The position numbers and the translations under genes are program-made. 64,000 nt of DNA from Arthrobacter sp. SDTb3-6 (lineage in GTDB: Bacteria; Actinomycetota; Actinomycetes; Actinomycetales; Micrococcaceae): contig NZ_JAAMFN010000006.1 in NCBI RefSeq assembly GCF_013376095.1, positions 62,001-126,000 on the forward strand, read 5' to 3'. Below are positions 2,184-30,087 of the stretch, piece after piece. The stretch's first letter is position 1; each line of letters begins with the position of its first letter. The notes under the pieces were generated by a model. The model was not told the DNA's origin. It saw nothing but the letters and a program-made list of their open reading frames with translations, and did no database searches.

Positions 2184-2214
2184 TTGGTATTTATTTTTAT
2201 GTGTGCGCTAAAGT
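2184..2214 (+). promoter_or_regulatory. Predicted promoter of the leuS leader transcript
   Basis: A -10 hexamer TAAAGT at 2209-2214 fits the actinobacterial TANNNT pattern. A -35-like TTGGTA lies at 2184-2189 with a 19-base spacer. Seven bases after the last T of the -10 box is G2221, the first base of the leader-peptide GTG codon, so the transcript would be leaderless for that peptide. Prediction from sequence only. Confidence 0.5.
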
Positions 2215-2220
2215 AATAAG

Positions 2221-2247
2221 GTGCATACAGTCCTCCTCCTTATATAG
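2221..2247 (+). CDS. Leucine-rich leader peptide upstream of leuS
   Basis: An eight-codon reading frame starts with GTG at the predicted transcription start and reads M-H-T-V-L-L-L-I then TAG. Three consecutive leucine codons (CTC CTC CTT, 2233-2241) stand just before the stop; CTT is rare in the high-GC genes around it. No Shine-Dalgarno sequence precedes it, consistent with leaderless translation. A hairpin starts at the base after the stop codon and a terminator-like hairpin follows. The layout is that of a ribosome-mediated attenuator that senses charged leucyl-tRNA and controls leuS. Leucine leaders are known for actinobacterial leuA; one at leuS is my inference. Confidence 0.6.
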
Positions 2248-2265
2248 CCGCAATGTCCATTGCGG
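2248..2265 (+). promoter_or_regulatory. First hairpin of the leuS leader
   Basis: Perfect 7-bp stem CCGCAAT (2248-2254) / ATTGCGG (2259-2265) with a four-base loop, starting directly after the leader-peptide stop codon. A ribosome stalled on the leucine codons at 2233-2241 would cover the left arm. The CGCAA of the left arm (2249-2253) can alternatively pair with TTGCG at 2274-2278 inside the next hairpin, so the two structures may be mutually exclusive. Confidence 0.55.
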
Positions 2266-2268
2266 TGC

Positions 2269-2298
2269 GCCCCTTGCGTCTGTCGAGGGGCTTTTGTG
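2269..2298 (+). terminator. Terminator-like hairpin of the leuS attenuator
   Basis: Stem GCCCCT (2269-2274) / AGGGGC (2286-2291) followed at once by TTTTGTG (2292-2298). It lies between the leader peptide and the leuS start, so it would stop transcription before the gene. The stem is short and the T tract is interrupted by G, so terminator strength is uncertain. Confidence 0.5.
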
Positions 2299-2353
2299 TG
2301 TGTGGGGGCAGGGGTGCAACGAAGACATGAATGAACCAATAGAGGCAGGGTAT

Positions 2354-4858
<2,505 letters not shown>

Positions 4859-28201: not shown

Positions 28202-28261
28202 GTGCGCACTGGAATGCTCCTTCTTAGCTGCCGCGGCGAGGCCCAAACCACGTTGACCTGA
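28202..28261 (+). CDS. Leucine leader peptide of leuA
   Basis: A 19-residue reading frame starting with GTG at the predicted transcription start: M-R-T-G-M-L-L-L-S-C-R-G-E-A-Q-T-T-L-T, then TGA. Leucine codons CTC CTT CTT lie at 28217-28225. The peptide followed by a conserved-looking CRGEA segment agrees with the LEU-type leader known upstream of leuA in actinobacteria. Codons for CRGEA form one arm of an 11-bp helix with sequence 40 bases downstream. The expected effect is higher leuA expression when charged leucyl-tRNA is scarce. Confidence 0.7.
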   Translation: MRTGMLLLSCRGEAQTTLT

Positions 28262-28291
28262 TCAACTTGGCAGTGGCCGCCCTCGCTGCGG
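28231..28291 (+). promoter_or_regulatory. Long-range helix of the leuA leader
   Basis: CCGCGGCGAGG (28231-28241) can pair with CCTCGCTGCGG (28281-28291), giving 11 bp with one G-U pair. The left arm lies within the leader peptide, six bases after the leucine codons, so a ribosome stalled there would block it. This is the kind of structure that links leader translation to leuA expression. Confidence 0.6.
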
Positions 28292-28326
28292 TGTTTGTGG
28301 TGCCCGGCCCAGCCTCCAAAAGTTGA

Positions 28327-30087
<1,761 letters not shown>

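Follow-up and report, generated by a model that had tools for sequence, protein, structure and literature searches.

The question raised by this locus is how the leucyl-tRNA synthetase gene (leuS) of Arthrobacter sp. SDTb3-6 might be controlled by a short ORF with a run of leucine codons and by two hairpins that lie directly upstream of it. Many synthetase genes are controlled by the T-box riboswitch; unlike these, leuS is accompanied by no recognizable T-box, as an Rfam scan of the window (i.e., the entire 64,000-nucleotide stretch of DNA analyzed here) returned no family at threshold, T-box included, in line with the initial annotation, which had seen none either. The upstream elements very probably constitute a ribosome-mediated transcription attenuator, in which leucine codons would sense the supply of charged leucyl-tRNA and thereby control leuS.

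Parts of the leader in the window

The -10-like box, the GTG, the leucine codons, the stop codon and both hairpins named in the initial annotation are all present where it had placed them (Table 1). Its reading of these parts as a leucine leader peptide and terminator before leuS is upheld, with the transcript probably leaderless and the element both kept in the genus and covarying. The 6-nt gap between TAAAGT and the GTG agrees with its further claim that the box is placed for a start at the peptide GTG. Because a pattern scan of positions 2020-2420 revealed no sigma-70-type promoter, the promoter call is founded on the -10 box and on its distance from the GTG, from which we infer a transcription start at 2221 and a leaderless transcript. 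The same interval contains one terminator-like site, against 0.3 expected, and the fold of positions 2221-2299 has a z-score of -2.43, with 4 of 200 shuffled sequences being as stable. Farther upstream, between glpK and the leuS promoter, lies a long imperfect inverted repeat, GAGAAGGGGCC...GGCCCCTTCTC, at about 2039-2150. It is perhaps the glpK terminator; as a part of the leader system it was set aside, there being no second full copy in the genome.

Table 1. Features of the leuS leader and of related leaders in the same genome
Feature	Position	Strand	Remarks
-10-like box TAAAGT	2209..2214	+	6 nt 5' of the GTG start; leaderless start at 2221 predicted
Leader peptide ORF M-H-T-V-L-L-L-I	2221..2247	+	GTG-CAT-ACA-GTC-CTC-CTC-CTT-ATA-TAG; stop TAG 2245-2247; related peptides in other leaders
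Control codons	2233..2241	+	CTC 2233, CTC 2236, CTT 2239; last is CTT 2239-2241
Spacer	2242..2246	+	5 nt from last Leu codon to hairpin 1
Hairpin 1	2247..2266	+	Perfect 7-bp stem CCGCAAT 2248-2254 / ATTGCGG 2259-2265, loop GTCC; stem begins at the first base past TAG; the G of TAG (G2247) can form a wobble pair with T2266, which lengthens the hairpin
Terminator hairpin	2269..2291	+	GCCCCT/AGGGGC; 2 nt 3' of hairpin 1; followed by TTTTGTGTGT
Terminator T-rich tail	2292..2300	+	TTTTGTGTG
leuS, leucyl-tRNA synthetase	2354..4858	+	GTG start; TIGR00396, 956.8 bits, cut-off 548.4
leuA leader (LEU element)	28202-28300		GTG start, MRTGMLLLSCRGEAQTTLT; long stem 4-5 nt past the last CTT; R1 E 0.006; leuA starts at 28348
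ilvB leader MNMLLVVVIS (L085, by eye)	C24:59406-59565	minus	Same design of stem and terminator; ilvB follows immediately

Conservation, covariation and downstream genes

Of 80 leuS loci fetched by means of the protein, many show recognizably the same leader, and 24 leaders were aligned. In this alignment 96.0% of the pair cells are standard pairs, and double changes are seen in 9 of the 15 pairs and in both hairpins, amounting to 34 double-change cells as opposed to 10.7 in shuffled alignments. The covariation score of 0.276 compares with 0.134 +/- 0.013 for shuffles, none of 500 of which reach it, and with at most 0.102 for slid versions of the alignment. The weakest of the five covariation measures, further pair types, is reached by 35 of the 500 shuffles.

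A covariance model (R1) built from these 24 rows, the window leader among them, finds the element in every one of the 23 genus genomes at E <= 1e-4. Conservation among relatives had been proposed as a check in the initial annotation, and this retention throughout the genus, along with the covariation of both hairpins, bears it out. At E <= 1e-5 the model matches 61 of 120 genomes of the family, 178 of 394 genomes of the class (76 of 138 genera) and 26 of 396 of a phylum sample, 9 of the latter lying outside the class; at this threshold 59 of the family genomes and 216 of the class genomes yield no match. The tallies rise to 66/120 and 269/394 at E <= 0.1, where they also contain leuA and ilvB leaders and chance matches. 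Among the 80 protein-fetched loci, some of which carry little upstream DNA, 31 match at E < 0.001, and 23 of these are rows of the model; no locus of Microbacterium, Curtobacterium, Herbiconiux, Agromyces, Leifsonia, Rathayibacter or Subtercola in that set does so. Judging from these comparisons, the arrangement of the leuS leader is not a product of chance. Upstream of leuS in Glutamicibacter (L011), inspection by eye reveals what seems to be a remnant: a peptide MNSQHNLA, whose ORF has a single Leu codon, together with a hairpin and a terminator.

The genes behind the matches point the same way. In 116 of 116 checked matches the next gene belongs to branched-chain amino acid metabolism: 110 leuS, 3 leuA-type (one of which, L162, has merely 24% identity to LeuA), 2 ilvB and 1 citramalate synthase. 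The checked set comprises all 56 loci fetched from the family and class searches and 18 new genus loci, each followed by leuS; 22 new loci from the phylum sample (18 leuS, 3 leuA-type, 1 ilvB); and 20 hand-picked class matches with E values from 9e-12 to 5e-9 (18 leuS, 1 ilvB, 1 citramalate synthase). Weaker matches reach related leaders, as 20 hand-picked family matches with E values from 4e-5 to 0.06 precede 12 ilvB, 4 leuA and 4 other genes. Within the genome of the window R1 ranks the leuS leader first (E 5e-14), followed by leuA (0.006), a site without a recognized gene of this kind (0.03), ilvB (0.7) and a further two sites near E 6. The LeuS proteins encoded behind the leaders L138 and L147-L157, several of which carry the Streptomyces peptide, are only about 40% identical to the window LeuS, and those of loci such as the ones of Thermoactinospora and Nonomuraea are about 70% identical. 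The two kinds of LeuS share one leader, as if the enzyme had been swapped and the leader retained.

Leader geometry and its mechanistic interpretation

We collected 138 unique leuS leaders, of which 134 were parsed (L068, L196, L219 and L222 were left out). At least three consecutive Leu codons, in runs of three or four, are found in 118 of the 134, where for 20 matches the picking pattern itself required two adjacent Leu codons. The remaining 16 have shorter runs, such as L109 with three separated Leu codons, L111 and L114 with two, and L158 with one. The codons vary among CTC, CTG, CTT and TTG (the last in L100, L104 and L200), and such synonymous variation would be expected under conservation of leucine and not of the bases. 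In the genus, the run is looser than the initial annotation had implied, for the middle Leu codon has given way to Pro, Phe or Arg in 5 of 23 members; the last Leu codon is nevertheless kept in all 23 (22 CTT, 1 CTC). Across the wider set, 125 of 134 leaders have CTT in that place, although in the window's glpK, leuS and leuA genes CTT accounts for only 6 of 155 Leu codons. A rare codon in last place would make a sensitive stall site, the underlying idea being that rare isoacceptors lose their charge first.

The distances within the leaders are similarly constrained. The start codon lies 6 nt past TANNNT in 108 of the 138 unique leaders and 7 nt past it in another 28 (136 in all); most of the 138 were chosen by a pattern permitting gaps of 4-9 nt. 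From the last Leu codon to hairpin 1 there are 5 unpaired nucleotides in 98 and 4 in 24 of the 134 parsed leaders (122 in all), with 0-3 or 6 nt in the other 12, and from hairpin 1 to the terminator there are 0-2 nt in 130 and 3 nt in 4. The length of hairpin 1, by contrast, is free (20-101 nt). In most of the 134 leaders the stop codon falls either two codons past the last Leu codon and ahead of the stem (70) or five codons past it and within the stem (56); as its position varies, the fixed distance must be counted from the control codon and not from the stop codon. Most of these rows come from R1, which is itself biased to such spacing, and leaders found without it therefore offer a fairer check: among 30 such parsed leaders, 28 (all except L008 and L043) have the 4-5 nt and 29 have the 0-2 nt. 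Related leaders in the same genome conform as well. The ilvB leader MNMLLVVVIS, by eye, has ATT, 5 nt and then the stem, and the leuA leader MRTGMLLLSCRGEAQTTLT has CTT, 4-5 nt and a long stem, with a short helix that may occupy the gap in the fold. In 16 of 16 R1-selected ilvB and leuA loci of the family, with frames assigned by eye, a branched-chain codon stands 5 nt before the stem-opening motif, two of them (L182 and L184) having a further Ile codon nearer the stem. The geometry thus starts with a last control codon, nearly always the rare CTT, which is set 4-5 nt from a hairpin whose length is free; the terminator comes 0-2 nt after that hairpin. Of 125 tails past the terminator (e.g., those of the window, at 2292-2300, and of L072 and L040), 102 have their first TG after the stem at position 3, 5 or 7, often within CATG or GTG.

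We propose the following course of events. Transcription would begin at the first base of the start codon, such that a ribosome loads at the 5' end and translates the eight codons. With ample leucine the ribosome would clear the Leu codons and leave at the stop codon, the terminator (2269-2300) would close and the transcript would end. When charged leucyl-tRNA is short, it would stall at the Leu codons, chiefly at the last one, the rare CTT. As hairpin 1 loops out the spacer, the stalled ribosome, hairpin 1, the terminator and RNA polymerase would then be almost contiguous, with just ~4-5 plus 0-2 nt of free RNA between them. This crowding would prevent the terminator from closing, and the polymerase would read into leuS without an antiterminator of the trp type. 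A ribosome that had reached the stop codon would instead melt hairpin 1 and thereby gain slack. The helicase position of the ribosome lies ~5 nt beyond its A site. That the crowding, or ruler, step is what decides termination is a proposal to which we accord somewhat less than even confidence. Its precedent is the repression of an intrinsic terminator by a ribosome that lies shortly before it: passages in Li and colleagues (PMC4824070) report that moving a stop codon to 5 bp before the terminator lowered termination from ~90% to <10%, and they put at an estimated 10-15 nt the free mRNA needed between A site and hairpin for full folding. The same source quotes ~10 nt beyond the A site as ribosome protected; with such protection, the lowest pairs of hairpin 1 may be disrupted on stalling, in which case another step would be required. 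A bolder generalization, which is less likely than not, is that the leuS, ilvB and leuA leaders of Actinomycetota share a single ruler-like attenuator design free of antiterminators, in which the hairpin would draw in the spacer such that only a ribosome halted on the control codons is pressed against the terminator and blocks it. Findings on other leaders tell against the proposed course of events: replacement of the control codons of Streptomyces coelicolor ilvB left regulation unchanged, as cited in PMC1262725, and a 2025 study supports an overlapping antiterminator in ilvBNC of Corynebacterium glutamicum (PMC11857589).

The foremost rival is the classical trp-type scheme, which we regard as fairly unlikely: the stalled ribosome would cover the first arm of hairpin 1, setting its 3' arm free to pair with the 5' arm of the terminator. 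Antiterminator hairpins of this kind have been reported for Streptomyces leuS in passages of Seliverstov 2005 (PMC1262725), and some Arthrobacter leaders have a 3' arm, GAGCGGC, that is similar to their terminator arm, GAGGGGC. We examined this 2:3 pairing by matching the RNA that begins 10 nt beyond the last Leu codon, downstream of a stalled ribosome, against the terminator 5' arm and loop, and expressed it as ranks in which 0.5 is chance and lower is better. Over the 134 leaders it does worse than chance against shuffles (0.65 +/- 0.02), the rank against foreign terminators is 0.56, and the gain is zero in 12 of 134. The 30 leaders found without R1 give 0.71 and 0.62, respectively. Since the native loops were self-folded, which flatters the shuffles, we take such ranks to mean only that there is no conserved antiterminator. 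In the 21 genus leaders the rank is 0.53 against shuffles, and their own pairing slightly beats foreign terminators (0.38), with the window itself at 0.42; lineage-specific antiterminators may exist in single leaders. Hairpin 1 hardly extends into the terminator, the overlap being 1 nt in 13 of 123 leaders and nil in 110. An intrinsic terminator does follow the leader ORF as in trp-type attenuators, but a conserved antiterminator sharing an arm with it was not found among the 134 leaders. The pairing of CGCAA with TTGCG, offered in the initial annotation as a possible switch, fares similarly: as a feature of the family this 1:3 pairing lacks support over 134 leaders, where its rank is 0.46 with foreign terminators and 0.59 with shuffles as the reference, as well as in a test of 84 leaders, but a slight lean to it survives in the 21 genus leaders (ranks 0.33 and 0.38), where it may have a local role, and by eye GCAA can meet TTGC in six inspected genus members. 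Taken together, the leaders lend no support to a conserved antiterminator, with a weak 1:3 lean within the genus.

It is also conceivable, albeit unlikely, that hairpin 1 is a helper that aids termination through pausing or stacking and that a stalled ribosome weakens the terminator by opening it. The abutment of the hairpins at 0-2 nt would suit coaxial stacking, the window tail TTTTGTGTG is short and interrupted, and an upstream hairpin is reported to be needed for S10 attenuation, as cited in the reference list of PMC8269248. However, hairpin 1 would be opened less far by a ribosome waiting at the Leu codons than by one that has moved on to the stop codon, and this arrangement hence predicts little dependence on leucine unless release is fast. 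Far less probable is an added translational control, in which the Leu run would pair with the segment before leuS in the manner of the LEU element of leuA. In L072, L003 and L017 the Leu run is perfectly complementary (10 of 10, 9 and 8 nt, respectively) to a segment between the terminator and leuS, and this may represent a second, translational layer in some lineages. On the whole, though, the longest match averages 5.84 versus 5.18 in shuffles, only 7 of 82 leaders attain p <= 0.05, and in a set of 85 leaders the own pairing has a rank of 0.43 when foreign Leu runs are the reference and of 0.46 when shuffles are; the longest match in the window is 4 nt (p 0.98). Finally, it is hardly credible that the short ORF arose by chance and stands in front of an ordinary terminator or a processing site, for, common as short ORFs containing Leu codons are and many as are the related genomes without the element, the conservation in the genus, the covariation, the CTT bias and the association with particular genes all stand against a nonregulatory origin.

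Relationship to known leaders

The initial annotation knew of no described leuS leader, a claim that does not stand, given that passages of Seliverstov et al. 2005 (PMC1262725) predict classical attenuators before leuS of Streptomyces avermitilis and S. coelicolor and that a 2021 reannotation of Streptomyces lividans (PMC8079986) describes a leaderless LeuL2 leader, MRAVRLLLSEPR, with a hairpin and U stretch. In the titles, abstract openings and passages surveyed, leader control of leuS is reported only for Streptomyces, although PMID 20198868 may list more. Thus, this kind of leader is already known; its wide spread and ruler geometry are, as far as our searches of that literature go, not stated there. 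The element is spread over much of Actinomycetota, and that breadth, along with the lack of an Rfam match in the window, implies that it could become an RNA family. More generally, the combination of fixed geometry, near-invariant rare CTT and no conserved antiterminator poses the question of whether a stalled ribosome can switch a terminator by position alone.

The closest relative is the Streptomyces attenuator itself, with which the window leader shares a Leu-rich leader peptide, hairpins and a terminator before leuS. In both, an ORF with consecutive Leu codons ends near a hairpin upstream of leuS, and one model finds all copies: the published S. lividans peptide MRAVRLLLSEPR is present in the R1 loci L138 and L159 and in 8 of the 11 loci L147-L157. 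They differ in the stop codon, which lies before hairpin 1 in the window (LLLI-TAG), whereas the Streptomyces ORF enters that hairpin (LLLSEPR-TGA), and in that the antiterminator proposed in 2005 for Streptomyces lacks support as a conserved feature here. The LEU element of leuA in Actinobacteria likewise has a Leu leader, but in the passages of PMC1262725 describing it a pseudoknot is combined with pairing of the Leu codons to the Shine-Dalgarno box, and such pairing of the Leu codons with downstream sequence is absent from the window leuS leader. The ilvBNC leader of C. glutamicum (PMC11857589) and the ilvB-II motif (PMC10272879, 2023), as far as the excerpts of these sources go, are also branched-chain leaders with a hairpin adjoining a GCCC/GGGC terminator; in the former, however, antiterminator and terminator overlap by GCC, in contrast to the near absence of overlap noted above for the leuS leaders. 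Lastly, the ruler-like action proposed here resembles repression of the pyrBI type, as outlined in passages of PMC4824070, in that the nearness of a ribosome would stop a terminator from folding. The two nevertheless diverge in their layout, for the pyrBI-type terminator lies inside the leader ORF, whereas that of the leuS leader lies outside it, and it would be the starved ribosome that acts.
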